NCBI RefSeq assembly: GCF_009711415.1
Contig: NZ_SMLZ01000105.1
Location: 1-64,000, forward strand
Length of the DNA stretch: 64,000 nt
Source: Roseibium denhamense
Lineage (GTDB): Bacteria > Pseudomonadota > Alphaproteobacteria > Rhizobiales > Stappiaceae
Direction: 5' to 3'
This document shows, in pieces, positions 8,665 through 26,719 of the stretch. The notes beneath the pieces were generated by a model that was not told the DNA's origin, ran no database searches, and was given only the letters and a program-made list of their open reading frames with translations. The position numbers were made by a program, and so were the translations under genes. Position 1 is the stretch's first letter; every line of letters starts with the position of its first letter.

Positions 8665-9372
8665 ATGGGGGATAGGGATGCAAACTCCACGGTGCGTGAG
8701 CGGTTGTCCGGGCTCGGTCTTGCCGATGCGCTCCGCCTGGAAAAGGCCGAGGCGAAAAAACAAAAGCGGCGGGAGAAGGAGGCCCGGCGGGCGTGCCGGC
8801 AGGATGCCCGGCAAGGGGATGCCGAAAGGGGGGATGGCGATAGGCGCGGCGATTTGGACACTGTCGCCTCTGGCCCGGCAGGGACATCTGCCGCCGATAC
8901 GGTCCTCGCGCCGGAGGCAACAGTAGCGGTGCCTTTGCACCCGGACCGGAAGATGGTGTCCGAAGTTGCCTTGCCGGATCTGCCCGCAGCGGCGGAGGGC
9001 AAAGACCCGGAGGCCGGCCCCTTGAAACAGCTGCCCGGAGAAAGCACGGCTGAGATGATCACCCGGCTTTACCAGGCCTTCAGCGGCCAGATGGACCAGC
9101 TTGAAACCCGGCTGGCCGGGCTCTTGCCGGAAGCGGGCGGCATGGCCGACATCGATAAGACAGTGAAAACACTGGCAAGCCTTGCCAAGACGCTGACCGT
9201 GTTGATGGAGCTTCGGGACGCAAATGCGGCGGGGGTCCAGTCAGATACGCAGGCTGATGCCCAATCAGCTGCCCAGGCAGGCGGGGAGGAGAGTGAGTGT
9301 GACGACCCGGATGCGCTCCGTGCGGAGCTTGCGCGCCGCGTTCTCGGCCTTGGCGGACAAGGGGCAGGTTGA
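8665..9372 (+). CDS. GTA small terminase-like protein (g1)
   Basis: 235 residues from ATG 8665, chosen because GGAGG at 8652-8656 is well placed; an upstream in-frame ATG at 8635 lies almost inside the terminator. The first ~130 residues are charged and low-complexity, with a lysine/arginine-rich coiled part. The C-terminal half (ESTAEMITRLYQAF, then DIDKTVKTLASLAKTLTVLMEL and DDPDALRAELARRVL) resembles the conserved end of R. capsulatus GTA g1, the DNA-packaging TerS. Its end overlaps the TerL start by 74 bp. Assignment rests on position plus the C-terminal pattern. Confidence 0.7.
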   Translation: MGDRDANSTVRERLSGLGLADALRLEKAEAKKQKRREKEARRACRQDARQGDAERGDGDRRGDLDTVASGPAGTSAADTVLAPEATVAVPLHPDRKMVSEVALPDLPAAAEGKDPEAGPLKQLPGESTAEMITRLYQAFSGQMDQLETRLAGLLPEAGGMADIDKTVKTLASLAKTLTVLMELRDANAAGVQSDTQADAQSAAQAGGEESECDDPDALRAELARRVLGLGGQGAG

Positions 9373-10645
9373 ACCCGCGCTTGCGGCCCTGAGCGGGGCC
9401 GAGCTTGCGTTTTTGAAACATGACTGGCCGACCTTTGCCCATTCCCATCAGTTGCCCCCGGAAACGGACTGGGGCGTCTGGCTGATGATGGGCGGGCGTG
9501 GGGCCGGAAAGACACGGGCCGGGGCGGAATGGATCCGGGCGCGGGCCCTTGGCCACAGCTGGAGCGGCGCAGCGTTTGCCGGGCGGATCGCCCTGGTCGG
9601 GGAGACTTACGCCGATGTGCGCGAGGTGATGGTGGAAGGGGTGTCGGGGCTTCTGGCCATCCACCCCAAGGCCGAGCGTCCGCGCTGGATCCCGACGCGG
9701 CGGCGGCTGGAATGGCCGAGCGGCGCGGTGGCCCAGGCCTTTTCCTCCGAGGACCCGGAGGCCCTGCGCGGGCCGCAATTCGACATTGCCTGGTGCGATG
9801 AACTTGCCAAATGGCGTTATGCCGAGGAGACCTTCGACATGTTGCAGTTCGGCTTGAGACTGGGGGCGCGGCCGCGCCAGCTGGTAACGACCACCCCGAG
9901 GCCGGTCCCGCTGATCAAACGGCTGATGAAACAGGCCGGAACCGCCATTACCCAGGCGCCGACACGGGCCAATGCCCTGTTTCTGGCCCCCAGCTTTCTG
10001 GATGCGGTGGTCGGCCGGTATGCCGGGACACGCCTTGGCCGTCAGGAGCTGGACGGCGAGCTGATCGAGGACCGGCCGGATGCGCTCTGGTCCCGTGAGC
10101 GGCTGGAGACGATCCGGGTCGACACGGCGCCGGACGATCTGGTGCGGATCGTGATCGCGGTCGACCCGCCGGCCAGCGCAACCCGCACGTCCGATGCCTG
10201 CGGGATAGTGGCGGCGGGGCTGGCGGCAGATGGCAAGGCCTATGTTCTGGCCGACCGCAGCCGCCGTCCGGCAAGCCCCGGCGTCTGGGCGGCCGCTGCC
10301 ACCGGGCTGTGGCAGGGGCTGAAGGCGGACTGCCTGATTGCCGAGGTGAACCAGGGCGGCGACATGGTCGCAAGTGTCATCAAGAGCGCCGACCCGTCGG
10401 TGCCGGTCAAACAGGTGCGCGCCAGCCGGGGCAAGTTCTCCCGCGCCGAACCGGTCGCCATGCTCTACGACCAGGATAAGGTCCGCCATGTGGGCGCCTT
10501 TCCCGACCTGGAGGACGAGATGGCCGATTTCGGTCCCGGCGGCCTGACCACCGGCCGCTCCCCCGACCGCCTCGATGCGCTGGTCTGGGCCATCTCCGAA
10601 CTCATGCTCACTCCCAAGGCAGAACCCAAGGTCAGAGGCCTTTAG
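9299..10645 (+). CDS. GTA terminase large subunit (g2)
   Basis: 448 residues from GTG 9299, eight bases after GGAGGA; the frame is open further up to 9224 but without a ribosome site. DNA-packaging motor: Walker A GGRGAGKT at 65-72, Walker B ending in Asp167-Glu168 (IAWCDE), a coupling motif TTTPRP shortly after, and a C-terminal RNase H-fold nuclease starting IVIAVDPPAS with EVNQGGD later. Length and order match GTA/HK97-type TerL. Normally the portal gene follows directly; here a ~1 kb insertion intervenes. Confidence 0.95.
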   Translation: MTTRMRSVRSLRAAFSALADKGQVEPALAALSGAELAFLKHDWPTFAHSHQLPPETDWGVWLMMGGRGAGKTRAGAEWIRARALGHSWSGAAFAGRIALVGETYADVREVMVEGVSGLLAIHPKAERPRWIPTRRRLEWPSGAVAQAFSSEDPEALRGPQFDIAWCDELAKWRYAEETFDMLQFGLRLGARPRQLVTTTPRPVPLIKRLMKQAGTAITQAPTRANALFLAPSFLDAVVGRYAGTRLGRQELDGELIEDRPDALWSRERLETIRVDTAPDDLVRIVIAVDPPASATRTSDACGIVAAGLAADGKAYVLADRSRRPASPGVWAAAATGLWQGLKADCLIAEVNQGGDMVASVIKSADPSVPVKQVRASRGKFSRAEPVAMLYDQDKVRHVGAFPDLEDEMADFGPGGLTTGRSPDRLDALVWAISELMLTPKAEPKVRGL

Positions 10646-11466: not shown

Positions 11467-11632
11467 AGCGGAGGATGTGGTGGGCTCTCACCTTTCGCGG
11501 TTAACGGCCGTCAAAGCAGCGAGTTGATGACAGCTGCGGGGTAACGGCGGACGGCGTGTCGCCGGCGAATTGATTCAATGCCTCAACGGCTTGAGCCATA
11601 CCTTGAACACTCATGAAAAGGGCAGGAATATC

Positions 11633-12823
11633 ATGCGGTTAAGAGACGCCCTTGAATCGGTCTTTCGCCCAGATGCCGTGGCGGCAGTGGAGCAAAAAGC
11701 CTCGCGGGCCGGTGCGCTGCTGGCATTGCAGGGGCCGTCACAGCCCGTGTGGAGCCCGCGCGATTATGCAGCCCTTGCACGCGAAGGCTTTGCCAAAAAC
11801 CCCGTCGTTTACCGCGCGGTGCGGCTCGTATCGGAGGCCGCTGCCAGCGTGCCGCTGCTGCTCTTCGATGGTGCGGATGAGCTGGACGTGCACCCGCTTC
11901 TGGACTTGCTGGCCCGTCCGAACGGCCAGGAGGCGGGTGCCGATTTTCTGGAAGGTCTATACGGCCATTTGCTGGTGGCCGGAAATGCCTATCTCGAGCA
12001 GGTCCCGGTCAATGACCGGCCCCGCGAACTCTACTGCCTGCGCCCTGACCGGGTGAAAGTGGTGCCGGGGCCGGAAGGTTGGCCGGAAGCCTTTGACTAT
12101 ACGGTTGGCGGGCGCACCGTCCGGCTGAGCGGTACCGCAGACGAGGGGATCGCTCCGGTCCGGCACCTGAAGCTGTTTCATCCACTCAACGATCACTACG
12201 GGTTTGCGCCCGTGGAAGCAGCGCAAATGGCGCTGGATATTCACAATGCGGCGGCGGGCTGGAACAAGGCTTTGCTCGACAATGCGGCCCGCCCGTCCGG
12301 CGCGCTGATTTACGGGGCGGGCGATGCGCTCAATCTGTCGTCCGACCAGTTCGACCGCCTGAAAGCAGAACTGGAAGACGGCTATCAAGGCGCGCGCAAT
12401 GCCGGGCGGCCGCTGCTTCTGGAAGGCGGGCTCGACTGGAAGCCGATGGGCCTCACACCGAAGGACATGGATTTCATTGAGGCCAAGAACCAGGCGGCAC
12501 GGGAAATCGCGCTCGCCTTCGGGGTGCCACCGATGCTGCTCGGTATTCCGGGCGACAACACCTATTCAAATTATCAGGAGGCGGGACGGGCGCTTTGGCG
12601 CGGTGCGGTTCTGCCGCTGGTCCGCCGCACCGCCAGCCATCTGGCCGCCTGGCTCGGCCCGGCCTATGGCGGCCAGCTGAAACTGGTGCCGGATCTCGAT
12701 GCGATCGAGGCCCTGTCGGCGGAGCGCGAAACGCTTTGGCGCAGGGTCGGGGCCGCGGAGTTCCTCTCGGACGATGAAAAGCGGGCGGCCGTCGGCTATG
12801 GCCCGCGCCCGGAGGCAGACTGA
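11633..12823 (+). CDS. GTA/HK97-type portal protein (g3)
   Basis: 396 residues from ATG 11633 (MRLRDALESVF) with AAGGGCAGGA upstream; the frame continues up to 11570 without support. The dodecameric portal forms the DNA channel at the capsid vertex. The sequence shows the HK97 portal landmarks: FAKNPVVYRAVRLVSEAAASV, the LRPDRVKVVPG segment, HPLNDHYGFAPVEAAQMAL and the conserved AFGVPPMLLGIPGDNTYSNYQEA region near residue 300. It ends overlapping the next gene by one base (TGATG), so translation is coupled. Confidence 0.95.
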   Translation: MRLRDALESVFRPDAVAAVEQKASRAGALLALQGPSQPVWSPRDYAALAREGFAKNPVVYRAVRLVSEAAASVPLLLFDGADELDVHPLLDLLARPNGQEAGADFLEGLYGHLLVAGNAYLEQVPVNDRPRELYCLRPDRVKVVPGPEGWPEAFDYTVGGRTVRLSGTADEGIAPVRHLKLFHPLNDHYGFAPVEAAQMALDIHNAAAGWNKALLDNAARPSGALIYGAGDALNLSSDQFDRLKAELEDGYQGARNAGRPLLLEGGLDWKPMGLTPKDMDFIEAKNQAAREIALAFGVPPMLLGIPGDNTYSNYQEAGRALWRGAVLPLVRRTASHLAAWLGPAYGGQLKLVPDLDAIEALSAERETLWRRVGAAEFLSDDEKRAAVGYGPRPEAD

Positions 12824-13053: not shown

Positions 13054-13248
13054 ATGAGCCTCGATGCAAACGTGACCGCACGGCCGCGCGCAAAACCCTG
13101 CGCGGCATCCGGAACTGAAAAGCGCTCGGCCAGCGGGCGCCGGGTCGAACATTTGCTGGTGTTCCGCGATTTTGCCGGAACGCTGTTTCATCTGGCGAGT
13201 GCGATCAATGTGCCGGAGGCCCGGCCCGTTCGGGAGACCCGCACATGA
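13054..13248 (+). CDS. Small basic protein of unknown function between g3.5 and protease
   Basis: 64 residues from ATG 13054 with a near-perfect AAGGAGGTG ribosome site at 13042-13050. The N-terminal half is basic (RPRAKPCAAS..KRSASGRR); the second half has a hydrophobic amphipathic segment (VEHLLVFRDFAGTLFHLASAI). The stop overlaps the protease start by four bases (ATGA), the coupling seen throughout this operon, which argues it is translated. I know no named family; it has no counterpart in the numbered R. capsulatus set that I recall. Confidence 0.6.
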   Translation: MSLDANVTARPRAKPCAASGTEKRSASGRRVEHLLVFRDFAGTLFHLASAINVPEARPVRETRT

Positions 13249-13679
13249 CTGCGCCAGCCGAACGGCCGGTCCGGTTTGCAGGTTATGCCAGCTTGTTCGA
13301 AACGCTTGACGGCGCCGGAGACCGGATCATGGCCGGGGCATTTCGCAAGAGCCTCAGACAGCGGGGGGTGTCGCGCACTGCGATGCTCTGGCAGCACGAT
13401 CCGGAACGCCCGATCGGGCGCTGGACCAGGCTGATCGAGACTGAGGACGGATTGTGGGCCGAGGGCGAGCTGACCACCGGAGTTGGATTGGCTGCGGAAG
13501 CCGCGCGCCTGCTTGCGGGCGGGGCGATGAACGGCCTGTCCATCGGTTTTAAGGCGCGCATGGCACAGCGCTCCGCCAACCGCCGCGAACGTTTATTGAG
13601 CGAGATCGACCTTTGGGAGATCTCGCTGGTGACCTTTCCGCAAATGGAGGAGGCGCGGGTGCGCTTTCTTTCAAACTGA
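13245..13679 (+). CDS. HK97-family prohead protease (g4)
   Basis: 144 residues. Herpesvirus-assemblin-fold protease that trims the capsid delta domain. Candidate catalytic residues are His51 in LWQHDPERPIG and Ser99 in MNGLSIGF, both in the family's conserved contexts, and RFAGYASLF at the N terminus is typical. It immediately precedes the capsid gene as in other HK97-like modules. Confidence 0.93.
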   Translation: MTAPAERPVRFAGYASLFETLDGAGDRIMAGAFRKSLRQRGVSRTAMLWQHDPERPIGRWTRLIETEDGLWAEGELTTGVGLAAEAARLLAGGAMNGLSIGFKARMAQRSANRRERLLSEIDLWEISLVTFPQMEEARVRFLSN

Positions 13680-13709: not shown

Positions 13710-15074
13710 ATGACAGCGACTTCCGATACCGGTATGGCCGGCCTGGAAACCAAGGCTTTCGAGATCAAGGCGGACATGCCGGGATCCGCTCTGCCGCCCG
13801 TGCCGCCCATTTCGCAATTGCCGGGCTCGCCTGCGGCGCCTGCATCAGATGTCAACACAAGCGGCGCCGATGTGGCTCGCAGCTTCGACAGTTTTTTCCA
13901 GACGTTCGAGGCCTACCGCTCGGTGAATGATGCGCGGATCGCGGAGATCGAAAACCGGGGCAGCGCCGACATACTCACGCTTGAAAAGCTGGACCGGCTC
14001 GACAGTGCGCTGAATGCCACCCAAAGGCGGCTCGACGACCTCAGCCTGAAGACCCGACGGCCGCAATTGTCCGGCCATGAGACGCGCGCCTCCTCGCCCG
14101 CAGTGCTGGAGCATAAGGCCGCTTTCGAGGCCTATGTGCGCTCCGGCCGGGAGCAGATGTTGCGTCCGCTTGAACCCAAGGCCCTGGCGGCCGGATCCGA
14201 TCCCGACGGCGGATATCTGGTCCCCGAACAGACCGAAACGGAAATCATGCGGCGGCTCGCGCAGGTATCTCCCATAAGGGCAATCGCAGGCAGCCGTCAG
14301 GTGTCTTCGGCAACCTACAAAAAACCGTTTTCGGTCACCGGGCCCCAGGCAGGCTGGGTGGGGGAAACTGATGCCCGGCCGGAAACGAACGCGCCGCAAT
14401 TGGCTGAACTGACCTTTCCGGCGATGGAGCTTTACGCCATGCCGGCGGCCACCGCGACCTTGCTTGAGGATGCGGCCGTCAACATGGACCAGTGGATTGC
14501 CGAGGAAGTGGAAACCGCCTTTGCCGAGCAGGAAGGGGCGGCTTTCGTCAATGGCGATGGCGTGAACAAACCCACCGGCTTCCTGTCGGTCCCGCAAGTG
14601 GCTGAGACCAGCTGGGCCTGGGGATCGCTTGGCACGCTATCAACTGGCGAGGCCGGAGGGTTTCCAACGCTGGCACCTGCCGACAAGCTGATCGACCTGA
14701 TCTACACGCTCAAGAGCGGTTACCGGCAAAACGCACGCTTTGTCATGAACCGGAAGACGCAAGGCGAGGTGCGCAAGCTCAAGGATGCGGATGGAAATTA
14801 TCTCTGGCAGCCGCCAAGCGGGCCGGGCGCCAGCGCCACTTTGTTCAACTATCCGGTGACGGAAGCCGAAGACATGCCGAACATGGCGATTGATGCAACG
14901 GCCATCGCCTTTGGTGATTTCCGGCGCGGCTATCTGGTGGTTGACCGGATGGGCGTGCGGCTGCTGCGCGATCCGTATTCGGCCAAACCCTATGTGCTGT
15001 TTTACACCACCAAACGGGTCGGCGGCGGCGTTCAGGACTATGATGCCATCAAATTGCTGACCTTTTCAGCGTAA
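13710..15074 (+). CDS. HK97-fold major capsid protein (g5)
   Basis: 454 residues with AAGGAGA before the ATG. Residues ~1-125 are a flexible, partly coiled scaffold (delta) domain expected to be cut off by the protease. The capsid domain then starts near EHKAAFEAYVRSG, with the family signature GGYLVPEQTETEIMRRL and, later, FVMNRKTQGEVRKLKDADGNYLW and FGDFRRGYLVVDRMGVRLLRDPY. Length is normal and no damage is seen. A 248-bp spacer with a terminator-like hairpin follows, so capsid may be produced in excess over tail genes. Confidence 0.95.
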   Translation: MTATSDTGMAGLETKAFEIKADMPGSALPPVPPISQLPGSPAAPASDVNTSGADVARSFDSFFQTFEAYRSVNDARIAEIENRGSADILTLEKLDRLDSALNATQRRLDDLSLKTRRPQLSGHETRASSPAVLEHKAAFEAYVRSGREQMLRPLEPKALAAGSDPDGGYLVPEQTETEIMRRLAQVSPIRAIAGSRQVSSATYKKPFSVTGPQAGWVGETDARPETNAPQLAELTFPAMELYAMPAATATLLEDAAVNMDQWIAEEVETAFAEQEGAAFVNGDGVNKPTGFLSVPQVAETSWAWGSLGTLSTGEAGGFPTLAPADKLIDLIYTLKSGYRQNARFVMNRKTQGEVRKLKDADGNYLWQPPSGPGASATLFNYPVTEAEDMPNMAIDATAIAFGDFRRGYLVVDRMGVRLLRDPYSAKPYVLFYTTKRVGGGVQDYDAIKLLTFSA

Positions 15075-15272
15075 GGCAGCATTTTTTTACAGCGCTCGGC
15101 TGGCCGTGAAAGCGGCAGAAAAACAGTGGTTTACGAGATCTCTTATGGGAACTGAGAAGCCAATTTTCAATTGGCCGATGGTCTCGCAAGCTTCACGACA
15201 TCTTGCGTTGCAAGTCTTAACCTGCAGGCCCACATCCGTTCATGAACGATGAGGGTCGTTCCTCCCCTGACT

Positions 15273-15309
15273 GGCGCCGGGCTTCTTGAAGCTGCGGCGC
15301 CTTCTTTTT
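15273..15309 (+). terminator. Terminator-like hairpin between capsid and g6
   Basis: Seven-pair stem GGCGCCG 15273-15279 with CGGCGCC 15295-15301, extended by an inner GCTT/AAGC stem, then a T-rich tract at 15302-15309. It ends 13 bases before the g6 start. A second, weaker hairpin (GCCAATT/AATTGGC) is at 15159-15175. Partial termination here would raise capsid relative to connector and tail proteins. Confidence 0.6.
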
Positions 15310-15321
15310 GGGTGACGTTTC

Positions 15322-15891
15322 ATGACATCGACACGACTTTTGGAGCCGGCGGCAGAGCCCGTCGCGCTGGAGGATATGCGCGCGCATCTGCGCCTGACCT
15401 CCACCGAAGAGGACACAAGCCTTGCCGGCTACATCAAGGCCGCGCGCAGCCACATCGAACAGTCCACCCGAAGGGCGCTGATCGCCCAGGGCTGGCGCCT
15501 TTATCTGGATGCCTGGCCGGACGGACGGGTTGTGCGCCTGCCGGTCTCGCCGGTCCTGTCCATCGACCAGATCACGGTTTTTGATCTGGAGGGAACACCG
15601 GTCGCCTTGTCGCCAAACGACTGGACGCTGGACCGGTCACACCATCCCGAGCGGCTGAAAATCAAGCTTGGGGCCGGGCTGCCCGCAAGCAAGATGCTTG
15701 CAGCGGAGATTGATTTCACTGCCGGCTATGGGCCTGCGGCTGAGGATGTCCCGGAAGACTTCCGCCAGGCGATCCGAATGCTGGCCGGCCACTGGTTCGA
15801 GCACCGGGAAGCCGGAAGCGAGCTATCTGTGGCCACCCTGCCGCATGGGCTCGACCGGTTGTTGTCGACGGCACGGGTGCCGCTCCTATGA
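15322..15891 (+). CDS. GTA head-tail connector / phiE125 gp8-like protein (g6)
   Basis: 189 residues. Typical of the gp6/gp8 adaptor family: N-terminal EPVALEDMRAHLRLTSTEED followed by LAGYIKAARSHIEQSTRRALI and the LPVSPVLSIDQITVFD segment, then PEDFRQAIRMLAGHWFEHRE near the C terminus. It should form the ring below the portal. Its stop overlaps the g7 start by four bases. Confidence 0.88.
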   Translation: MTSTRLLEPAAEPVALEDMRAHLRLTSTEEDTSLAGYIKAARSHIEQSTRRALIAQGWRLYLDAWPDGRVVRLPVSPVLSIDQITVFDLEGTPVALSPNDWTLDRSHHPERLKIKLGAGLPASKMLAAEIDFTAGYGPAAEDVPEDFRQAIRMLAGHWFEHREAGSELSVATLPHGLDRLLSTARVPLL

Positions 15892-16208
15892 GCGCGGGCC
15901 GTTACAGGGTGCCGGTGGTCTTGCAAAAGCCGGTGGAAACGCGTCCTGCCGGCGGGTCGGTCACGGTCACCTACCAGACCATCGCCACGGCCTTTGCGTC
16001 CATCCGGCTCATCGGCCAGCAGGAGCGCTTTTCCGAAGAGCGGCAGACAAGCGGCAACACCTACGAAATCCGGCTGCGGCGCCGGTCCGGGCTGACCGGC
16101 GGCTGGCGCATCCTGACCGGGTTTCAGGAATTCCGGGTTCTGTCCGCAGCCGATGGCGACCAGCGGCGGCGGGAACTCGTCTGCCTGACCGAAGAGGTGA
16201 CGTCATGA
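15888..16208 (+). CDS. Head-tail adaptor / head closure protein (g7)
   Basis: 106 residues. Small beta-barrel stopper of the SPP1 gp16-like family: RYRVPVVLQKPVETRPAGGSVTVTY, then FASIRLIGQQERFSEERQ and WRILTGFQEFRVLSA. Overlaps genes on both sides by ATGA junctions, indicating tight coupling in the connector block. Confidence 0.85.
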   Translation: MSAGRYRVPVVLQKPVETRPAGGSVTVTYQTIATAFASIRLIGQQERFSEERQTSGNTYEIRLRRRSGLTGGWRILTGFQEFRVLSAADGDQRRRELVCLTEEVTS

Positions 16209-16621
16209 GCCTTCAAAACGTGCAGACGGCGCTCAGGGAAGCGCTGTTTTCGGTCCTTGAAGGGGACGGCACCTTGAGCGGACTGATCGGGTCCGGCGGG
16301 ATTTTCGATGCCGTTCCGCGTGCGCAGGCCTTTCCCTATCTGGTGCTGGAGGTTTTGGAAACAAAACCACTGCTGGCGGAGATCGCGGATGGGGCCGTTC
16401 ATGAGCTTGTCCTGAGCGTTTTCAGCCGCGGACCCAGCCGGGACGAGGCGGCAGATGCGGCCGGACGGGCGGCGGACATTCTCATGCACGGCCCGGTAAC
16501 TCTCTCCGGCCACCGGCTGGTCAATCTGACCCTGACCAATGTGGTGAGCCGCAAGTTGCGGGATGGGCGCGGGTTCCGTGCCGCTTGCGCGATCCGGGCG
16601 GTGACCGAGCCGCTGAATTGA
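16205..16621 (+). CDS. GTA DUF3168 tail-terminator-like protein (g8)
   Basis: 138 residues from ATG 16205, coupled to g7 by an ATGA overlap; a much longer upstream frame exists but would run through g6 and g7. DUF3168 pattern: VQTALREALFSVLEGDGTLSGLIG, AFPYLVLEVLETKPL and HRLVNLTLTNVVSRKLRDGRGFRAACAIRAVTE. In the family this acts as the tail terminator joining tail tube to head. Confidence 0.88.
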   Translation: MSLQNVQTALREALFSVLEGDGTLSGLIGSGGIFDAVPRAQAFPYLVLEVLETKPLLAEIADGAVHELVLSVFSRGPSRDEAADAAGRAADILMHGPVTLSGHRLVNLTLTNVVSRKLRDGRGFRAACAIRAVTEPLN

Positions 16622-16653
16622 GACGCCACAAGTAAGACACACGGGAGGCTGGG

Positions 16654-17067
16654 ATGGGCGCACAGCGTGGACGCGATCTTTTGCTGAAACTGGACCAGAC
16701 CGGGTCCGGCACATTCTTGACGGTTGCGGGGTTGCGCGCCCGTCAGGTGGCACTGAACGCCACCAGCATCGACATCACGACCGCCGACAGCGCGGGCCGC
16801 TGGCGCGAGTTGCTGGAAGGGGCGGGAACCCGCGCCGCCAGCTTGTCCGGCTCGGGCCTGTTCAAGGACAGTGCCAGCGATGCGGCTGTCCGCCAGGTGT
16901 TCTTCGATGGAGCAATCCGCTCCTGGCAGGTCGTCGTACCGGATTTTGGCATTCTGGAAGGACCTTTTCAGGTGACCGCCCTGGAATATGCCGGCCGTCA
17001 TGATGGCGAAGTGACGTTTGAACTTGCGCTGTCATCCGCCGGTGAAATCAGCTTCACGGCTGCATGA
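16654..17067 (+). CDS. Major tail (tube) protein, TP901-1 type (g9)
   Basis: 137 residues. Opens with the family's GRDLLLKLDQTGSGTFLTVAGLRARQVALNATSIDITTADSAGRWRELL pattern (here cited in part) and ends with the beta-rich FEGPFQVTALEYAGRHDGEVTFELALSSAG-like region. Forms the stacked tail-tube rings. Preceded by GGGAGGC at normal distance. Confidence 0.9.
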   Translation: MGAQRGRDLLLKLDQTGSGTFLTVAGLRARQVALNATSIDITTADSAGRWRELLEGAGTRAASLSGSGLFKDSASDAAVRQVFFDGAIRSWQVVVPDFGILEGPFQVTALEYAGRHDGEVTFELALSSAGEISFTAA

Positions 17068-17154
17068 GTTCGTGACCGAGATCAGCAGGCGGTCAATCGG
17101 GATCAATATGCCGCCCCAAGCTGATCGACAACTGACTGGTCGAGGGAGGGGAAA

Positions 17155-17511
17155 ATGGCAAATCGTATCCGGGGAGAGATTTCTGCTCAGCTGGATGGCC
17201 GCGCATGGACGCTGGTCTTGACGCTTGGCGCGCTGGCCGAACTGGAGGAGGCTTTCTCCTGTTCGTCGCTGTCCGAGCTTCTATCCAGGTTTTCCGCCGG
17301 GAACCTGTCTGCCCGGGACATGATCCGTCTTCTGGGGGCAGGTTTGCGCGGGGCAGGGCATGATGTTTCCGACGATCAGCTCGCCATGATGAAGGCGCCG
17401 GGTGGGGCGGCAGGCTTTGCCGCCATCACAGCCGATTTGCTCAGCGCAACCTTCGGCGATCCGCAGGAAAGCGGGGACCCGATGGATGAAACCGACGGAC
17501 AGGCTGCCTGA
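17155..17511 (+). CDS. GTA tail assembly chaperone-like protein (g10)
   Basis: 118 residues after GGGAGGGG. Starts NRIRGEISAQLDGRAWTLVL and has LGALAELEEAF and SARDMIRLLGAGLRGAG, the pattern of the GTA g10 / Phage_TAC_11 family. Helps assemble tape-measure and tube proteins. The stop shares one base with the next start (TGATG). Confidence 0.85.
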   Translation: MANRIRGEISAQLDGRAWTLVLTLGALAELEEAFSCSSLSELLSRFSAGNLSARDMIRLLGAGLRGAGHDVSDDQLAMMKAPGGAAGFAAITADLLSATFGDPQESGDPMDETDGQAA

Positions 17512-17714
17512 TGCTGCCCTGGCGATCGCTTCTGCACAGTGCCGTCAAGGACCTTCGCTGGAGCCCGGAGACGTTCTGGCGGGCAACCCCGTTTGAACTT
17601 GCGGCTGCCTTGAAGAAAGATCCGGGATTTTCGCCCATGTCTCGGGCGGATCTAGAGGCCCTGGAGCGGTCCGCAGGGGACGGCGGCTGCACACCAACGG
17701 ACACGATGCCATGA
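17511..17714 (+). CDS. Small tail assembly chaperone (g10.1, Phage_TAC_6 type)
   Basis: 67 residues. Contains the short signature DLRWSPETFWRATPFELAAAL followed by MSRADLEALER typical of the second small chaperone encoded between g10 and the tape measure. Coupled to its neighbours by 1- and 4-base overlaps. Too short for further analysis. Confidence 0.85.
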   Translation: MLPWRSLLHSAVKDLRWSPETFWRATPFELAAALKKDPGFSPMSRADLEALERSAGDGGCTPTDTMP

Positions 17715-18241
17715 CCGACACCCGTTTTGATCTCGCTGTGCCGCTTGAAGATCTTGCCGGTTTTCAGCGCCAGATGGATGGCCTCAACAAGTCGGCCGAA
17801 GCCTTTTCCCGCACATTGGCGGGCGGGCTGAAGGCCGCTGTTTTGGATGGAAAGTCTCTGGAAAGCGTCTTCAAGCGGATTGCCCTGTCCGCGTCGAGCC
17901 GCCTGATCGATCAGGCCCTGGCGCCGCTGAGCAATCTGGCCGGCCAGGCCTTGAGCGGCATTCTGCCGTTTGCAAAAGGCGGTGTTGTGTCGTCTCCGGC
18001 CCTGTTTGGCCTGCAGGACGGGATCGGGCTGATGGGCGAAGCGGGCGCAGAAGCGATCATGCCTCTAGCGCGCGGTGCGGACGGCCGCCTGGGCGTCCGG
18101 ACAGGCCAAAACGGCAATGGCGCGGGACCGCCTGTCCAGATCACTGTGGTTACGCGGGATGCGGAAAGCTTCGCCCGGTCTGAAACACAGGTCTCGGCAA
18201 TGGTGGCCCGCGCCGTCGGACGGGGACGACGCGGGCTCTAA
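17711..18241 (+). CDS. Short tail tape-measure protein (g11)
   Basis: 176 residues, short like GTA tape measures, which span very short tails. The N-terminal half is helical (FQRQMDGLNKSAEAFSRTLAGGLKAAV and SVFKRIALSASSRLIDQALAPLSNL). The C-terminal half has the FAKGGVVSSPALF and GLMGEAGAEAIMPL motifs that mark the end of lambda-type tape measures. Together with the next gene block it forms the tail tip. Confidence 0.88.
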   Translation: MTDTRFDLAVPLEDLAGFQRQMDGLNKSAEAFSRTLAGGLKAAVLDGKSLESVFKRIALSASSRLIDQALAPLSNLAGQALSGILPFAKGGVVSSPALFGLQDGIGLMGEAGAEAIMPLARGADGRLGVRTGQNGNGAGPPVQITVVTRDAESFARSETQVSAMVARAVGRGRRGL

Positions 18242-18263
18242 CACCGGCCTGAAAAGGAGGGGC

Positions 18264-18518
18264 TCAGGACACGGCGTTTTCAGCCGCCGCCAGCATGGCA
18301 GCAATCTGGTCTTTCAGGTGGAGCCGCTTCTTCTTCAGGTCTTCCAGAACCTCGTCGGATGCCGGCTGGATATCTGTCTCGATGCGGTGAACCTCGCGGT
18401 TGACCTCATGGTACTCCTCGGCCAGCCGGGCGAAGTGGGCATCATTCGTCTTCAGGGAATGCAGTGCTTCGGCTGCTTCCGGAAATTCTTCATGCAGTTC
18501 GTGTGGAACGTGGCTCAT
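18264..18518 (-). CDS. YdcH/DUF465 family protein
   Basis: 84 residues from ATG 18518 with AAGGAGG seven bases upstream. Residues 1-60 carry the DUF465 helical pattern: HEEFPEAAEALHSLKTNDAHFARLAEEYHEVNREVHRIE, then EDLKKKRLHLKDQIAAML (quoted in parts). The protein is a two-helix coiled coil, family function unknown. It is the only gene inside the GTA head-tail block read from the minus strand besides the GIY-YIG gene. The last 23 bp separate it from the g11 stop, so it is an insertion of a host-type gene. Confidence 0.88.
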   Translation of the reverse strand: MSHVPHELHEEFPEAAEALHSLKTNDAHFARLAEEYHEVNREVHRIETDIQPASDEVLEDLKKKRLHLKDQIAAMLAAAENAVS

Positions 18519-18613
18519 TCTTGCCTCCTTATGATGGCCCCAAACTGCCGTTCCAGCGCCTGCCGCACCTTGAGCCAGATCAATTGGAGCCGGTATTTGC
18601 ACCGGAGAGCATG

Positions 18614-19249
18614 ATGGACGGGTTCCTCGATGAACAATTCCCTGCCGGCGTCGCCTTTGGCGCGCTTGGCGGGCCGGAACGGCGGACTGAGGTCGTTGGG
18701 CTGGCGACAGGGTATGAAACCCGCAACGCGCGCTGGGCGGACAGCCGCCGCCGCTATGATGCGGCGACCGGAATCCGGTCCCTGGCGGATTTGAGGGACG
18801 TCGTCGCGTTCTTTGAAAAGGTGCGGGGGCGTCTCTACGGGTTCCGGTTCCGCGACCCGTTCGACCACAGCTCGACCAATACGGCGGCCTTGCCGAGTGC
18901 GTTTGACCAGTGGATCGGCGCGGGAGACGGGACGATTGACCGGTTCGCGCTGCGAAAGGCCTACGGCGCAGGAATTGCAGGGTATTCGCGGCTGATCCGC
19001 CTTCCCGATCCGTCGAGTGCCAAATGCGCCATCAACGGGCAGGAACTGGTCCGGGGGAGCGACTTCTCCGTTGATCCGGTAACCGGCGAGCTTGTCTTCA
19101 GCCTCCCGCCGCCAGCGGGGGAAGCCGTCACGGCGGGCTTCCTGTTTGACGTTCCGGTGCGCTTTGACACCGACCGGCTGGAACTCAGCCTTACCCATTT
19201 CGAAGCCGGGGACATTCCCTCCATCCCATTGATCGAAATCCGGATCTGA
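18614..19249 (+). CDS. GTA distal tail protein, DUF2460 (g12)
   Basis: 211 residues from ATG 18614; ATG 18611 is adjacent, but its GGAGAG ribosome site would be too close. DUF2460 hallmarks: FLDEQFPAGVAFGALGGPERRTEVV, YETRNARWADSRRRYD, YGFRFRDPFDH and the C-terminal VPVRFDTDRLELSL. Its upstream leader region overlaps the start of the antisense ydcH-type gene, so transcripts from that gene would be antisense to the GTA mRNA here. Confidence 0.92.
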   Translation: MDGFLDEQFPAGVAFGALGGPERRTEVVGLATGYETRNARWADSRRRYDAATGIRSLADLRDVVAFFEKVRGRLYGFRFRDPFDHSSTNTAALPSAFDQWIGAGDGTIDRFALRKAYGAGIAGYSRLIRLPDPSSAKCAINGQELVRGSDFSVDPVTGELVFSLPPPAGEAVTAGFLFDVPVRFDTDRLELSLTHFEAGDIPSIPLIEIRI

Positions 19250-19286: not shown

Positions 19287-20177
19287 ATGAAACAGATTGA
19301 TCCCAGCCTTGCCGGGCATATTGCCGGGCGGGCGACCACTCTTGCCAGCTGCTGGATTGTACGGCGGCTGGATGGCACCGCGCTTGGCTTTACAGACCAT
19401 GACCGTCCGCTCGCGGTTTCCGGCACCCTTTGCCAGCCGCAGAACGCCTTGAGCGCGACAGCCGCCAAGGACGGGCCGGGCCTTGCCGTTGGCGGCAGTG
19501 AAATTGGCGGGGCGATCAGCAGTCCGGATCTGACCGATTCCGATCTGGAGCGCGGTCTTTGGGACAATGCCCGTGTCGACGTCTATCTCGTGAACTGGGA
19601 AAATCCGGACCAGACCCTGCTGCTGCGGCGTGCCATCATTGGCGAAGTGAATCGCAGCGGCAGCGCTTTTACCGCCGAATTGCGCGGTCTGTCGCATCTG
19701 CTGGAAAGCCGGCAGGGCCGTGTTTTCTCCCGCCGCTGCGATGCCGATCTCGGCGATCACCGCTGCAAGATTAACCTGAGTAATCCGGCCTATCAGACCG
19801 AAGCGCTGGTGACGGCCAGTGCGCCGGGATGGGTTCAGACCGGGCCCCTGTCAGGCTATCAGGATGGCTGGTTCACGGGCGGCAGGCTGACGGTCCTTGA
19901 CGGGGCTATCTCCGGATTTGCCTCCGAGATCGCGCTTGAACAGGCAGGGACTGCAGGCCCCGTCTTTTCGCTCTTCGAAGCAACCCCGGCAGCGCTGGAT
20001 GCCGGGACGCGCATCCGCGTCAGGGCAGGCTGCGACAAGATGCTGGCCACCTGCCGCAGCAAATTCGCCAATCACCTCAATTTTCAAGGATTCCCGCATA
20101 TGCCGGGCGCCGACTTTGTCCTGTCTTATCCAAACAGCAACACAGGCCGGAACGATGGCAGCCCTCTCGTCGACTGA
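19287..20177 (+). CDS. GTA hub protein, DUF2163/BR0599 family (g13)
   Basis: 296 residues. Contains the GFTDHDRPLAV opening, CQPQNAL, the RVDVYLVNWENPDQTLLLRRAIIGEV block, and the cysteine-rich segment SRRCDADLGDHRCK then GCDKMLATCRSKFANHLNFQGFPHMPG. Those cysteines are the ones reported to bind an iron-sulphur cluster in GTA and related siphophage hubs. Its end overlaps the next gene by 23 bp. Confidence 0.92.
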   Translation: MKQIDPSLAGHIAGRATTLASCWIVRRLDGTALGFTDHDRPLAVSGTLCQPQNALSATAAKDGPGLAVGGSEIGGAISSPDLTDSDLERGLWDNARVDVYLVNWENPDQTLLLRRAIIGEVNRSGSAFTAELRGLSHLLESRQGRVFSRRCDADLGDHRCKINLSNPAYQTEALVTASAPGWVQTGPLSGYQDGWFTGGRLTVLDGAISGFASEIALEQAGTAGPVFSLFEATPAALDAGTRIRVRAGCDKMLATCRSKFANHLNFQGFPHMPGADFVLSYPNSNTGRNDGSPLVD

Positions 20178-20634
20178 CAGCGCCACCACGGCATCTGTCC
20201 GGGCGCGCGCAGTGATCGCCGCAAGAGCCTGGATCGGAACCCCTTACCGGCATCAGGCAAGCTGCTTGGGGGCTGGAACAGACTGCCTGGGACTTGTGCG
20301 GGGCGTATGGCGCGCGCTCTACGGCGCAGAACCGGAAGAGATCCCGCCTTATTCGCCGGACTGGGCTGAGACAGGCGGCGGCGAAACGCTTCTGGCCGCC
20401 GGCCGGCGCTGGCTGGTGGAAACACCGCTGGCGGAGGCAAGGCCGGGCGACGTCCTCGTGTTCCGCTGGCGCGACAATTCCGCTGCCAAGCATACGGGCC
20501 TCTTGAGCGCGCCGTTGGGGCAAAGCCCGCACCTGATCCATGCTTATGAGCGGGCCGGTGTCATTGAATGTCCGCTGGTTCCGGCCTGGCAGCGCCGGAT
20601 TGCTGCCGTTTTTTCCTTTCCGGAGACCGATTGA
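20155..20634 (+). CDS. GTA NlpC/P60 cell-wall peptidase (g14)
   Basis: 159 residues from ATG 20155. Tail-tip peptidoglycan hydrolase: catalytic Cys44 in GTDCLGLVRG, His113 in AAKHTGLL, with the WIGTPYRHQASCLG and RPGDVLVFRW segments of the family. In GTAs it opens the wall for DNA entry. The frame is open upstream through g13 but the ATG after the conserved spacer fits the family length. Confidence 0.93.
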   Translation: MAALSSTDSATTASVRARAVIAARAWIGTPYRHQASCLGAGTDCLGLVRGVWRALYGAEPEEIPPYSPDWAETGGGETLLAAGRRWLVETPLAEARPGDVLVFRWRDNSAAKHTGLLSAPLGQSPHLIHAYERAGVIECPLVPAWQRRIAAVFSFPETD

Positions 20635-20636
20635 TC

Positions 20637-22949
20637 ATGGCAACGCTTCTACTTGCGGCAGGCGGGCAGGCCCTTGGCGGCGCCCTCGGCCTTGGTGGCC
20701 TTGGCGGCCTGCTTGGAAAGGCTGCCGGCGCATTGGCCGGTGGTGTTGTCGATCAGGCCCTGTTTGGCGGCAGCTCGAGAACTGTCGAAACGGGACGCTT
20801 GGCGGATCTGTCCGTTCAATCCTCAAGTGAAGGTGCCGCGCTTCCAAAAGTTTACGGCCGGGTGCGGCTGGCGGGGCAGGTGATCTGGGCCACACGTTTT
20901 GAAGAAGTGATCAGCGAGGAAGAACAGGGCGGTAAGGGCGGCGGCGGATCAAAAGTCACGGTCCGCTCCTATTCCTATTTCGGCAACTTTGCAGTCGGAG
21001 TTTGCGAAGGGGAAATCGCCCGGATCGGCCGGATCTGGGCCGACGGCAAACTGCTCGACACGCGCGCCCTTCAAATGCGGATCTATACCGGCAGTGGGGA
21101 CCAGCTGCCCGATCCGCTGTTGTCCGCCCTTCAGGAAACAGCGCCCGCCTATCGGGGGACGGCCTATGTTGTCTTTGAACGCCTTGCTCTGGAGCCGTTC
21201 GGAAACCGCCTGCCGCAGCTCAGTTTCGAAGTGATCCGGCCGGTGGAACCACTGGAGAACCAGATCCGGGCCGTGACGATCATTCCCGGCGCCGGAGAAT
21301 TTGCCTACGCGCCCCAAGTGGTCTCCGAAGTGCTCGGGCCGGGGCAACAGCGGCCGTTGAACCGCCATGTGGAGGCCGGTAGCAGCGACTGGACCGAGTC
21401 CATGGATGAGCTTCAGGCCCTGTGCCCGAACCTCAAACGAGTTGCGCTCGTCGTCGCCTGGTTCGGCGAGGATTTGAGAGCGGAACACTGCCGGATCCGG
21501 CCGAAGGTGGAGGACAACCTGACCCAGACCAGTGGCGGCAGCTGGTCGGTTGCGGGACTTAACCGGCAGTCCGCGGTGCCCGTTTCTGAGACTGATGGAC
21601 GCCCGTCCTATGGCGGAACACCGTCGGATTCCTCCGTCATTGCGGCGATACGCGACCTGAAGGACCGGGGCCTGGAGGTGATGCTCTACCCGTTCGTTCT
21701 CATGGATATTGCGCCTGGAAACAGCTTGCCCGGCCCGGATGGGGGAACCGGACAACCGGCCTTTCCCTGGCGCGGCCGGATCGTGGCCGGGCCGGACGCT
21801 GCTCAAAGCATATCCGCGTTCATGGGAACAGTGTCGGCGTCTGATTTCAGCACCGCACCCGGCAGCGTGGCCTATGCCGGACCGGACGAATGGACTTTCC
21901 GCCGTCACATTCTGCATATGGCAGCCCTTGCCAAGGCGGCCGGCGGCGTGGAGAGCCTTTTGATCGGGACTGAAATGCGCGGCCTGACCCGTGCGCAGGC
22001 CGGAAACGGGGTCTATCCCTTTGTTGACGCGCTCAAGGCGCTGGCCGCCGAGGTGCGGGCCCTTGTAGGGCCTGACACAAAGCTCTCCTATGCCGCGGAC
22101 TGGTCTGAATATGGCGCGCACCAAGTGTCGGCGGATGAACTCCGCTTTCCGCTTGATCCCTTATGGGCGGACCCTTCAATCGATTTCATCGGGATCGACA
22201 ACTATTTGCCGCTGACCGATCTTCGGGATGGCGCGGTCCCGGAGACACCGGATGATCTCGCGCTCTATCGGGACAGGATCGCGGCCGGTGAGTATTTCGA
22301 TTGGTATTATGCCAGCGATGCCGACCGTAAGGCCGGTGTGCGGACGCCCATCACCGATGGGGCATATGGCAAGCCTTGGGTCTACCGGGCCAAGGATCTT
22401 GAGGGGTTTTGGCAGAACGAGCATTTTGAACGGGTTGGCGGGGCCGAACTTGGGTCTGCAACCGCCTGGCAACCGGCCTCCAAACCGATCCGATTTACCG
22501 AACTCGGATTTCCGGCGGTTGATCGCGGCACCAACCAGCCGAATGTGTTTATCGATCCCAAATCCTCTGAGAGCATGCTGCCGCATTTCTCGCGCGGCGG
22601 GCGCGACGATGCCCTGCAGCGGCGGGCCCTTGAGGCCCATCTGAGCTGGTGGTCCGCCTCGCATCCGGTCCTGCCGCCGGGCACCAATCCGGTCTCGCCC
22701 GTTTATGGCGCGCCGATGGTTGATCCGGACGGGATTTACCTGTGGACCTGGGACGCGCGGCCGTTTCCAGCCTTTCCAACCTTCAAGGAGGTCTGGGCGG
22801 ACGGGGACAACTGGCAGCGCGGCCATTGGCTCACAGGCAGACTGGGTGGTCTCAGCCTGAGCGGACTGATCTCCGCGCTCCTGGCGGATTACGGGGTGCC
22901 GCCCGGGGATATTACGGTGTCCGGGCGGGACGGGGGCGTCGACGGCTAG
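20637..22949 (+). CDS. GTA giant baseplate/host-specificity protein, N-terminal part (g15, TIM-barrel)
   Basis: 770 residues from ATG 20637 to an amber TAG at 22947-22949. It has a glycine/alanine-rich N terminus, the phage tail hub region (SSEGAALPKVYGRVRLAGQVIW) and the GTA TIM-barrel-like domain: LVVAWFGEDLRAE, GRIVAGPD, VESLLIGTEMRGLT, FIGIDNYLPLTD, and YLWTWDARPFPAFP near the end. GTA g15 is normally one chain of about 1,300 residues; the missing part continues in the same frame straight after the TAG. The context GVDG-stop-VLSGPLAARD suggests a lost tyrosine codon (homologues commonly read VDGY here). Confidence 0.9.
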   Translation: MATLLLAAGGQALGGALGLGGLGGLLGKAAGALAGGVVDQALFGGSSRTVETGRLADLSVQSSSEGAALPKVYGRVRLAGQVIWATRFEEVISEEEQGGKGGGGSKVTVRSYSYFGNFAVGVCEGEIARIGRIWADGKLLDTRALQMRIYTGSGDQLPDPLLSALQETAPAYRGTAYVVFERLALEPFGNRLPQLSFEVIRPVEPLENQIRAVTIIPGAGEFAYAPQVVSEVLGPGQQRPLNRHVEAGSSDWTESMDELQALCPNLKRVALVVAWFGEDLRAEHCRIRPKVEDNLTQTSGGSWSVAGLNRQSAVPVSETDGRPSYGGTPSDSSVIAAIRDLKDRGLEVMLYPFVLMDIAPGNSLPGPDGGTGQPAFPWRGRIVAGPDAAQSISAFMGTVSASDFSTAPGSVAYAGPDEWTFRRHILHMAALAKAAGGVESLLIGTEMRGLTRAQAGNGVYPFVDALKALAAEVRALVGPDTKLSYAADWSEYGAHQVSADELRFPLDPLWADPSIDFIGIDNYLPLTDLRDGAVPETPDDLALYRDRIAAGEYFDWYYASDADRKAGVRTPITDGAYGKPWVYRAKDLEGFWQNEHFERVGGAELGSATAWQPASKPIRFTELGFPAVDRGTNQPNVFIDPKSSESMLPHFSRGGRDDALQRRALEAHLSWWSASHPVLPPGTNPVSPVYGAPMVDPDGIYLWTWDARPFPAFPTFKEVWADGDNWQRGHWLTGRLGGLSLSGLISALLADYGVPPGDITVSGRDGGVDG

Positions 22950-24512
22950 GTGTTGAGCGGGCCGTTAGCGGCCCGCGACGTTCTGGAACCGCTTCTTGAT
23001 GCCTTTGGCGGGATCGCCTCTGACCGCGGCACGCATATTCACATCGGCAGGTCCGTTCCTCTTGCGGTCAAGAGCCTGGCCGGACCGGATTTCGCCATGC
23101 CGGAGGCGGGCGGTGATTCTGTGGTGCGCCAGGTGCGCGCGCAGTCGGGGGAGCTTCCGGGCGAGGTGCGTCTGGGCGCCTGGGACATTTTCGGCGCTTA
23201 CCAAAAACGGCTGGCCGCCTCCCGCCGCCTGGAAGGGGGGAGCCTCGATATTCAGACCATCGACCTTCCCGCCAGCAGCAGTCCGGACCGCATGCAGATC
23301 GAGGCCGATCGCAAACTGAACCGGCTCTGGCGGGACCGCGAACGGATCACCTTTGAAACCGGGATCGATCAGATCGCTCTCGAGCCGGGTGATGTCGTCG
23401 AGCTGTCAAGCCTTCCCGGCCGCACAGCGGCCGAACCTCTACTGGTCAGGTTGACAGCTGTTGAGGATACGGACCGGCGCCGGTTCGAGGCGGTGCGCAC
23501 CGGCCAGGACTTGGCAACGGGCGCCCCGGTGCCCTTGCCGGGTCAGCCCTACCGTCCCGGTGACCCGAGCCCGCCAGCGGCCCTCTTTCTGGATCTGCCC
23601 AAACTTCGGGATGACGATCCGGATGATCATGTGCGGCTGGCAGCCTTCGCAAAACCCTGGCCGGGCGGTCTACAGGTCTTGCGCTCCCCGGCCAGTACCG
23701 GTTTTGAGCCGCTCCTGACCGTGCCGGTGCCAGCTGTCATGGGCATCACCCTGACGGAACTTATGCCCGGGCCGCTCTGGGTACTGGACCGGCGGGCGGT
23801 ATTGGATGTCAAGCTTTTTGGCGGGACGCTCACAAGCCTGCCGCTGGAAACGGTGCTTGCCGGGCGCAACGCACTTGCCGTGCGCTGCAGGAGTGGCGGC
23901 TTTGAAATCCTTCAATTCACGACAGCCGATCTCATCGCACCGTCAACCTACCGGCTCAGTGGTCTGTTGCGGGGGCAGAAGGGGACCGAACCCGAAATGC
24001 AGGCCGGTGCTGATCCGCAGGCCGATACCGTGGTGCTGTCGGACGGCCGTAATCCCCTGGTCCCGTTGGACACGGACGCCTCTGGCCTTACGTTCCATTA
24101 CCGGCTGTTGCCCCAAGGAGCCGCGCTGGATGATCCCTCGGCGCTTGCGCTCACCCATCGGAGCAACCAGCGCGCCGCGCGGCCGCTCGCCCCCATCCAT
24201 ATCCGCGCGCGCCGGGAGGCCGCAGGAATCCGGCTGTCCTGGATCCGGCAGACACGCACCGGGGGCGACAGCTGGGAGCAGGCGGAGGTTCCACTTGGCG
24301 AGGAAAGCGAAGCCTATGACATCCGGATCTTGTCTTCGGGCGGTGGAGCTGTTTTGCGGGCCTTAAGCTCCGGCAGCCCGTCAGTGCTTTATCCGGAAGA
24401 CGATATCACGGCGGATTTCGGGGCCGTGCCAACGCACCTGAGCGTGGCCGTGGCGCAAGTGTCGCCGCGCGCAGGCCGGGGCGATGAACGAAAGGCGGTT
24501 CTTCATGTCTGA
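22950..24512 (+). CDS. GTA giant baseplate protein, C-terminal part (g15)
   Basis: 520 residues in the same frame as the preceding part, beginning at the codon after TAG (GTG 22950, with TTG 22953 next). Includes the phage-tail-3-like domain (ARDVLEPLLDAFGG, IHIGRS) and the C-terminal beta-rich region with STYRLSGLLRGQKGTEPEM, a recognisable g15 motif. No ribosome site precedes 22950, so separate translation would depend on re-initiation or amber read-through. The combined length with the N-terminal part is 1,291 codons including the stop, equal to an intact g15. Confidence 0.88.
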   Translation: MLSGPLAARDVLEPLLDAFGGIASDRGTHIHIGRSVPLAVKSLAGPDFAMPEAGGDSVVRQVRAQSGELPGEVRLGAWDIFGAYQKRLAASRRLEGGSLDIQTIDLPASSSPDRMQIEADRKLNRLWRDRERITFETGIDQIALEPGDVVELSSLPGRTAAEPLLVRLTAVEDTDRRRFEAVRTGQDLATGAPVPLPGQPYRPGDPSPPAALFLDLPKLRDDDPDDHVRLAAFAKPWPGGLQVLRSPASTGFEPLLTVPVPAVMGITLTELMPGPLWVLDRRAVLDVKLFGGTLTSLPLETVLAGRNALAVRCRSGGFEILQFTTADLIAPSTYRLSGLLRGQKGTEPEMQAGADPQADTVVLSDGRNPLVPLDTDASGLTFHYRLLPQGAALDDPSALALTHRSNQRAARPLAPIHIRARREAAGIRLSWIRQTRTGGDSWEQAEVPLGEESEAYDIRILSSGGGAVLRALSSGSPSVLYPEDDITADFGAVPTHLSVAVAQVSPRAGRGDERKAVLHV

Positions 24513-25236
24513 AACAACCCGTATGCACCTGCCGCTGCTGGCGGCGGCTCAGGCGCAAAAACATGTCACTCACAACGAAGCCTTGTTGCGGCTTGATGCC
24601 CTCAGCCATCCGGTGATCGTGAGCCAATCCCTGACCTTGCCGCCCGTGAACCCCAGCGAGGGGGACTTGTATCTCCTGCCGGCAGGGAGCACCGGAGACT
24701 GGCTCGGCCATGATGATGAGATTGCCGAATGGCGGAATGGGGTCTGGGAGTTCTATCTTCCCTTCGAGGGACTGTCGTTGGCCGTCTCCGGTCAGACTTC
24801 AGGACTAACCCGCAAGGACGGGACTTGGTTGCAAACAGGGGCCCTGATCAGCGAAGACCGTGTGCTGGCCCGCTCCGGCTTCGGCGCTGAAAGCCGCCAC
24901 CAGGTGATCGAGGCCGAGCTTGCCGGGCTCTCAGGCGCAGTCGCCGAGACCGGTCCGCTGATCCCGGACCGGGCAATCGTTTTCTGCGTTTCCTTGCGTG
25001 TCGCGGATTCGGTCACCGGGGCAACCTCATTTGATTGCGGTCTGGACGGTGAGCCGTCGAAATTCGGCGGGTCTCTGGGAACAGCGCCAGGGGCGAGCAA
25101 TCTGGGCGTGATTGGACCAACGGCCTTTTACGCGCCAACGCCGGTACGCGTCACGGCAAATGGCGGTTCATTTACCGGCGGCTCTGTCCGTCTTGCCGTG
25201 CATTGTTTTGTGCCAACGGCACCGGACACGGCCTGA
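24505..25236 (+). CDS. DUF2793 tail-fibre-like protein
   Basis: 243 residues from ATG 24505 (an in-frame ATG lies at 24484), overlapping the g15 end by 8 bp. DUF2793 occupies the first ~110 residues: LPLLAAAQAQKHVTHNEALLRLDAL, EGDLYLLPAGSTGDW and EWRNGVWEFYLPFEG. DUF2793 occurs in GTA-associated fibres. The C-terminal ~100 residues form a beta-rich section that would carry receptor contact. Confidence 0.85.
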   Translation: MSETTRMHLPLLAAAQAQKHVTHNEALLRLDALSHPVIVSQSLTLPPVNPSEGDLYLLPAGSTGDWLGHDDEIAEWRNGVWEFYLPFEGLSLAVSGQTSGLTRKDGTWLQTGALISEDRVLARSGFGAESRHQVIEAELAGLSGAVAETGPLIPDRAIVFCVSLRVADSVTGATSFDCGLDGEPSKFGGSLGTAPGASNLGVIGPTAFYAPTPVRVTANGGSFTGGSVRLAVHCFVPTAPDTA

Positions 25237-25846: not shown

Positions 25847-26719
25847 ATGAAAGTGAGTGACCAGGGGCTCGCCTTTCTGGCGGCGCATGAGGGTTTCGTG
25901 TCCAGGGGATATCTGGATCCGGCCGGGATTGTCACCATCGGCTATGGCTTCACCATGCGCAGCCGGGTGTTTTCGTCCTGGTGGCGGCAAAGGACGGGAC
26001 AGAGCTTGAGAGTGGGGGACAGTCTTGCCCGCACAGACGCCAACAAGCTCCTTTTGAAACTCCTGGAAGAAGAATATGCCCCGCCGGTCCTGCGCCGGTT
26101 TCATCGGCTGTCACAACCTCAGTTCGACGCCTGTGTGTCCGTTGTCTATAATCTGGGCGCCGGGGCGCTGGGCTGGCGCTGGGCGCAGGCTCTGGCAGAC
26201 GGGCTGACGGCGAAGGCGGCAAGCTTGCTGCGCAAAACCGGAACGAGAGCGGGCGGGCGTGTGCTCAAGGGCCTTGTCCGGCGCAGAGCCGCCGAGGCCC
26301 GGTTGATCGAGACCGGAGACTACCGGATGTCCAAACCGCCTCTTCAGTCCTGCGATGATGTCCGCCAACTTCAGAGGAACTTGCAAAAACTCAGTTTCGA
26401 TCCTGGGCCGCTTGACGGCATTTGCGGGCCCATGACGCATGCCGCAATCACCGCGTTCCAAAAAGCACATCCGCCGCTTGTCGTGGACGGTGTTGCCGGA
26501 CCGGCGACCATGGCGACGTTGAAACGGGCTCTTGAAACACGTGCGGGCCAAGCCTTCACGGGAGCCGCCGCGCTCCTGTCTGGAGGGGTATGCGTGTCGT
26601 CCGGTGTGCCGTCTCACCTTGCTGCCATGGCGACAGGCCTCGTTGGCGGGCTCGGCTGCGGGCTACTGGTCCTATGGCTCTACCGGGGCCATCTACTCGC
26701 CCGCATCCCCTCCGGCTGA
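25847..26719 (+). CDS. GH24 lysozyme-type endolysin with peptidoglycan-binding domain and C-terminal membrane helix
   Basis: 290 residues with AGGAGGA before the ATG. Residues 1-160 are a lysozyme: Glu in LAAHEGF, IVTIGYGFT, and QFDACVSVVYNLGAGALGW. Residues ~165-230 are a PG_binding_1 domain (CDDVRQLQRNLQKLSFDPGPLDGICGP, then AAITAFQKAHP and DGVAGPATMATL). Residues ~240-285 are a hydrophobic stretch (ATGLVGGLGCGLLVLWLY). The C-terminal anchor is unusual for a soluble endolysin. With the small membrane protein behind it, it forms a lysis cassette at the end of the GTA cluster. Confidence 0.88.
   Translation: MKVSDQGLAFLAAHEGFVSRGYLDPAGIVTIGYGFTMRSRVFSSWWRQRTGQSLRVGDSLARTDANKLLLKLLEEEYAPPVLRRFHRLSQPQFDACVSVVYNLGAGALGWRWAQALADGLTAKAASLLRKTGTRAGGRVLKGLVRRRAAEARLIETGDYRMSKPPLQSCDDVRQLQRNLQKLSFDPGPLDGICGPMTHAAITAFQKAHPPLVVDGVAGPATMATLKRALETRAGQAFTGAAALLSGGVCVSSGVPSHLAAMATGLVGGLGCGLLVLWLYRGHLLARIPSG

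Follow-up and report, generated by a model that had tools for sequence, protein, structure and literature searches.

Cells that produce GTAs lyse, and why GTAs persist all the same has yet to be explained (Redfield and Soucy 2018, PMC6209664; Kogay et al. 2024, PMC10883770). In the model of Redfield and Soucy 2018, GTA-positive populations do not withstand invasion by GTA-negative cells, and Kogay et al. 2024 consider whether alphaproteobacterial lineages with pseudogenized GTA clusters might be cheaters. The protein of interest here is the megatron, which in RcGTA is described as comprising an iris/penetration part (residues 1-46), an adhesin-like part (47-229), a peripheral domain (230-744), a central domain (745-984) that binds the distal tail protein and a fibre-binding domain (985-1304) (Bardy et al. 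2020, PMC7296036). We analysed a stretch of 64,000 nucleotides from Roseibium denhamense, hereafter the window, which holds an RcGTA-type cluster whose megatron gene, g15, is divided by a single in-frame TAG. Our analysis suggests that a recent nonsense mutation has probably inactivated g15 in the otherwise intact GTA of this Roseibium species. The divided gene has the following parts:

20637..22949, + strand, N-terminal piece of g15, 770 codons up to the TAG, with a GTA_TIM domain
22947..22949, + strand, premature TAG at about residue 794 of the RcGTA megatron, within the central domain (745-984)
22950..24512, + strand, C-terminal piece of g15, 520 codons from GTG, with Phage-tail_3 and Rcc01698_C domains

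Read directly from the window, the TAG occupies 22947-22949 in the sequence ...GGCTAGGTG..., and a scan of the frame identified it as the sole interruption between 20568 and 24512. The mechanical ORF start at 20568 gives 793 amino acids up to the TAG; because residue 1 of the RcGTA megatron aligns to ATG 20637, homology sets the start there, and the N-terminal piece has 770 codons. From this ATG to 24512 the sequence is thus one frame of 770 + 520 codons, the second part running from GTG 22950 directly after the TAG. The two pieces correspond to residues 1-789 and 797-1295, respectively, of a single 1304-residue PDB chain (6tba_8A), in agreement with an earlier note on this DNA that had recognized the split gene as gp15 and the TAG as parting frames of 770 and 520 residues. 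The intact megatron of an RcGTA-type GTA is not encoded here, owing to the in-frame TAG, and provided that the base is real a conserved structural gene of the cluster has been disabled, as in pseudogenized GTAs. Within a 484-kb sample of the source genome (G000; 331 genes, simple predictor), 16 same-frame neighbour pairs are separated by one stop, the g15 pair included; among the others, those with a good coding signal to either side of the stop appear by eye to be mostly ordinary gene pairs in which a start soon follows the stop.

Since the TAG corresponds to about residue 794 and the central domain starts at 745, the break falls about 50 residues into that domain. Translation of g15 would stop after 770 residues, and the truncated product would retain the iris, adhesin-like and peripheral (TIM-barrel) parts together with approximately the first fifth of the central domain, while lacking the remainder of the central domain, responsible for distal-tail-protein binding in RcGTA, and the entire fibre-binding domain. 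With these parts missing, no functional particles would be expected; to judge from the domain map, a chain ending at the TAG should be unable to build a working baseplate.

The codon at this position is a sense codon in relatives. Among 30 other homologous places in 22 genomes (a further copy in G016 without the locus was left out), 29 could be aligned, and the column reads Y14 L4 F4 I3 W3 V1, that is, hydrophobic or aromatic in 29/29 and never a stop. The five nearest relatives (~60% identity) all have Tyr, in line with the Tyr-to-TAG change read from the context in the earlier note, and Leu or Ile is found in five Roseibium orthologues that are more distant. A protein search of viral contigs (80 loci kept of 597; best identity 60%) gave an IMG/VR column of Y51 F21 L5 H1 gap1 (79 residues counted, 80 loci), with Y, F or L in 77/79. 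An exact pattern around the TAG, with N at one base, had 0 matches in the viral contigs, a collection from which records near G000 may be omitted, and the C-terminal piece found four relatives at <=49% identity in the genome contig collection. One candidate for a natural split, G028, was rejected: the recognisable region of residues 1-553 is missing there, yet the frame crosses the TAG site.

These alignments bear on the reading that the megatron is made in two pieces, translation stopping at the TAG and restarting at the adjoining GTG 22950, with the two chains assembling, which we regard as very unlikely. The GTG follows the TAG immediately, a GGGGG 13 bases upstream pairs with the anti-Shine-Dalgarno sequence at -8.6 kcal/mol, an energy attained by 6 of the 75 start-like codons that lie in frame within g15, GTG 22950 included, and both halves are still recognisable; however, the spacing is long and the G run belongs to Gly codons. 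Furthermore, the break lies inside the central domain rather than between domains, and no gene boundary occurs at the TAG site in the relatives aligned, including the 80 IMG/VR loci. Homologues that end here and are followed by a separate second gene, the arrangement named in the earlier note as a refutation, were absent from those aligned across the site, the rows of the genus included. Re-initiation as proposed in the earlier note is possible but would divide one structural domain. The corresponding picture, in which the stop is fixed, the GTA stays active and its baseplate is built from two chains, one N-terminal (cell wall/pore) and the other central/fibre-binding, is, in our estimate, just as improbable.

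Amber suppression, read-through or recoding, yielding some full-length protein, would account for a frame that stays open for 520 codons past the TAG, but we consider it the least credible of the readings. No CUA anticodon is present among the 41 tRNAs of G000 (ARAGORN, 30 + 11), tRNA-Tyr occurs once, and TAG is an ordinary stop in this genome, ending 58/317 predicted genes with a stop in the 484-kb sample. A conserved recoding site is absent: the megatron stops of five other species lie at other codons, and both TAA and TAG occur among them. Neither of the signs that would point to recoding, the same stop in relatives or a suppressor tRNA, was found among the aligned relatives and the 41 tRNAs, and this option of the earlier note is accordingly disfavoured.

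The remainder of the cluster was compared in two ways. The window was searched with ORFs from two relatives, G004 and G014, and g2-g14, the DUF2793 gene and the lysozyme-type gene of the window were compared with up to 15 Roseibium relatives, g1 and g3.5 lying outside this tally. The head-tail genes g2 to g15 are present in the order and numbering usual for RcGTA, g15 being matched to RcGTA in PDB.

9299..10645, + strand, g2 large terminase, no break seen
11570..12823, + strand, g3 portal, no break seen; the true start is probably a few codons inside
13245..13679, + strand, g4 prohead protease, no break seen
13710..15074, + strand, g5 major capsid protein, no break seen
15235..15312, + strand, hairpin element resembling a terminator, located between g5 and g6 and conserved in near relatives
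15322..15891, + strand, g6 adaptor, no break seen
15888..19249, + strand, g7, g8, g9 (tail tube), g10, g11 (tape measure) and g12 (DUF2460, distal tail), neither stop nor frameshift in comparison with up to 15 relatives
19287..20177, + strand, g13 hub, no break seen
20155..20634, + strand, g14 NlpC/P60-type peptidase, no break seen
24484..25236, + strand, DUF2793 protein overlapping the end of g15, with some tail-fibre PHROG matches, no break seen
25847..26719, + strand, phage-lysozyme/endolysin-type gene, no break seen

No internal stop or frameshift was found elsewhere in g2-g14 or the two downstream genes, so that the earlier description of the rest of the cluster as intact holds as far as these comparisons reach. 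Three apparent lesions were discarded: a g4 stop in tblastn lies upstream of the likely real ATG 13245 and is most likely non-coding, a frame jump before g6 in tblastn most likely falls within a non-coding element, outside the likely genes, and the g3 stops of relatives are located before the likely start. The gene at 7793-8209 of the window adjoins the cluster in both relatives compared, G004 and G014, as expected of vertical inheritance at a fixed locus, and the best reading is that the G000 cluster is a real, vertically inherited Roseibium GTA. Separately, in G022 (L044/L045) the DUF2793 gene adjoining g15 is interrupted in frame by a stop, at position 183 of 250 in the alignment.

The element between g5 and g6 consists of two hairpins; the second is rich in GC and precedes a T run, and the fold z of the element is -1.93 (5/200 shuffles equally stable). 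Among 15 relatives it is near-complete at ~85% in G003, G004 and G008, represented by its first part in G007 and by short matches only in G014 and G057, and undetected in nine; Rfam gave 0 matches across the window, this element included. The Caulobacter GTA is known to use anti-termination to pass internal terminators. In G007, the element is interrupted by an insertion of ~57.8 kb, one end of which carries a phage-type integrase gene (L139 ~16756-16767 and L040 ~18985; G007 C1, ~2144985-2202767), placing g5 and g6 57.9 kb apart. The 12-mer CTCCCCAGACTG is found at both junctions, and AGGTGCGGCGG repeats lie close to both ends. This conserved element of the GTA is a possible attachment site.

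Across a genus set of 45 Roseibium genomes, one per species, the megatron is present in 17. One full-length orthologous megatron frame is found in 14 of these; the other three are G000 with its TAG, G007 with a frameshift, and G001, in which the gene is split over two contigs and cannot be judged. A capsid orthologue (>=70% identity) occurs in the same 17 genomes, three others having distant capsids only, and DUF6456 (PF20057), which we take to be a domain of the GafA/GafZ activators, occurs in exactly the same 17 and is absent from the 28 others. Since capsid, megatron and DUF6456 share the same 17/45 genomes, the cluster and the activator-type gene appear to be kept or lost together; G000 retains both, its activator-type DUF6456 gene standing at a contig edge with an open frame of 183 aa. 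The 28 remaining genomes have no megatron match, close capsid orthologue or DUF6456 gene. On a tree of one gene, rpoB, from the 45 genomes (midpoint-rooted on a fragment, with two sequences at 30 and 45% coverage), parsimony gives weak support for at least four changes of GTA state. Several Roseibium genomes (L114-L124 and others) carry further megatron genes elsewhere, mostly at 44-47% identity, which probably belong to other phage-like clusters; no second megatron gene was found in G000.

The main competitor of a nonsense mutation is a sequencing or assembly error, under which the gene would be intact in the organism and the GTA might be functional; we judge this unlikely, though clearly less so than the two readings discussed above. 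It would take one base in a draft of 116 contigs, and the cluster has no other break that we found. Against it, the 4.81-Mb genome has a completeness of 100 and a contamination of 0.09, the TAG lies ~22.9 kb from the nearer end of contig C39 (124,778 bases), and rpoB, a gene of similar length, shows a stop in 0/150 best rows of the order and 0/45 rows of the genus, so errors of this sort look rare in the collection. The TAG base is probably real. The megatron itself was found in 212/297 genomes of the order, and seven of its best 150 rows were flagged with a stop. One of them, a TGA in G025, was dropped because no stop lies inside the alignment, the next stop of the frame coming at the end of the match. 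The other six are internal, at query positions 275, 491, 675, 771 (the G000 stop), 944 and 1015, four being TAG and two TAA. Each order survey was confined to the best 150 rows, with some genomes occurring twice and frameshifts uncounted. The difference between megatron and rpoB (6 vs 0 of 150) has p ~0.015 in a one-sided Fisher test done by hand; because rpoB is essential, it controls for sequencing error and not for tolerance of loss. Terminase had a stop in 1/150 best rows, a control that does not show preferential breakage of g15, since the lengths compared are 448 vs 1291 residues. Among the matches listed, the g15 stop is the sole stop in G191 and G138; G154 has two stops near the end of g13 besides that in g15, G034 has only partial matches to g8 and g11 with g2 outside the stretch, and the clusters of G268 and G025 are cut by contig ends. 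An internal stop occurs in 1/80 and a frame change in 2/80 of the IMG/VR megatron loci. The distribution of these lesions is one of scattered nulls. Amber is also the likeliest nonsense type in G000 g15, since TAG makes up 165/327 of its one-step stops.

The age of the stop was approached through the terminal branch of G000, which with topology fixed measures 0.240 for g15N, 0.575 for g15C and 0.219 for g2-g14. Of 16 genomes, G000 has the highest g15C to g2-g14 ratio, 2.6, but the frame-intact G045 and G016 reach ~2.3; similarly, g15C of G000 differs at 7/98 columns that are invariant elsewhere (G016 10/101, G045 7/98). Because the g15N rate in G000 is ordinary and the frame has no second lesion, we infer that the stop is young. 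That g15C shows no clear decay is what a young null would give, but a functional second piece or a sequencing error would explain it just as well. Overall, of the four options offered in the earlier note, a null mutation is the best supported.

Our results arrange the genus in a graded series: a full-length megatron frame is present in 14 species, a lone nonsense codon with no other break found in one, and severe damage in another; one more is not assessable, and 28 gave no match to the megatron and have neither a close capsid orthologue nor a DUF6456 gene. If real, the TAG marks an early stage of loss and allows one to ask whether non-producing lines still receive DNA. Like G000, G007 has an orthologous cluster with a disrupted g15 (an apparent frameshift); unlike G000, it has a further apparent stop in g13 and the integrase-bearing insertion between g5 and g6, and looks like a later stage of GTA loss. 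GTA pseudogenization has already been published, and G000 adds a clean new case of it; the available part of Kogay et al. 2024 (PMC10883770) names neither Roseibium nor a megatron nonsense allele, and no title among the top-ranked literature matches concerned a GTA lesion in Roseibium, which is not proof of absence. In comparison with the RcGTA megatron Rcc01698 (g15; PDB 6tba/6teh, Rhodobacter capsulatus), the Roseibium gene has the like position after g14 and the like domain content, but is divided by a premature stop at about RcGTA residue 794. With the pseudogenized GTAs, as described in PMC10883770, it shares a disabling mutation in a GTA and relatives without any GTA; by contrast with them, a single nonsense codon is the sole lesion found in G000, and the activator-type gene is present.
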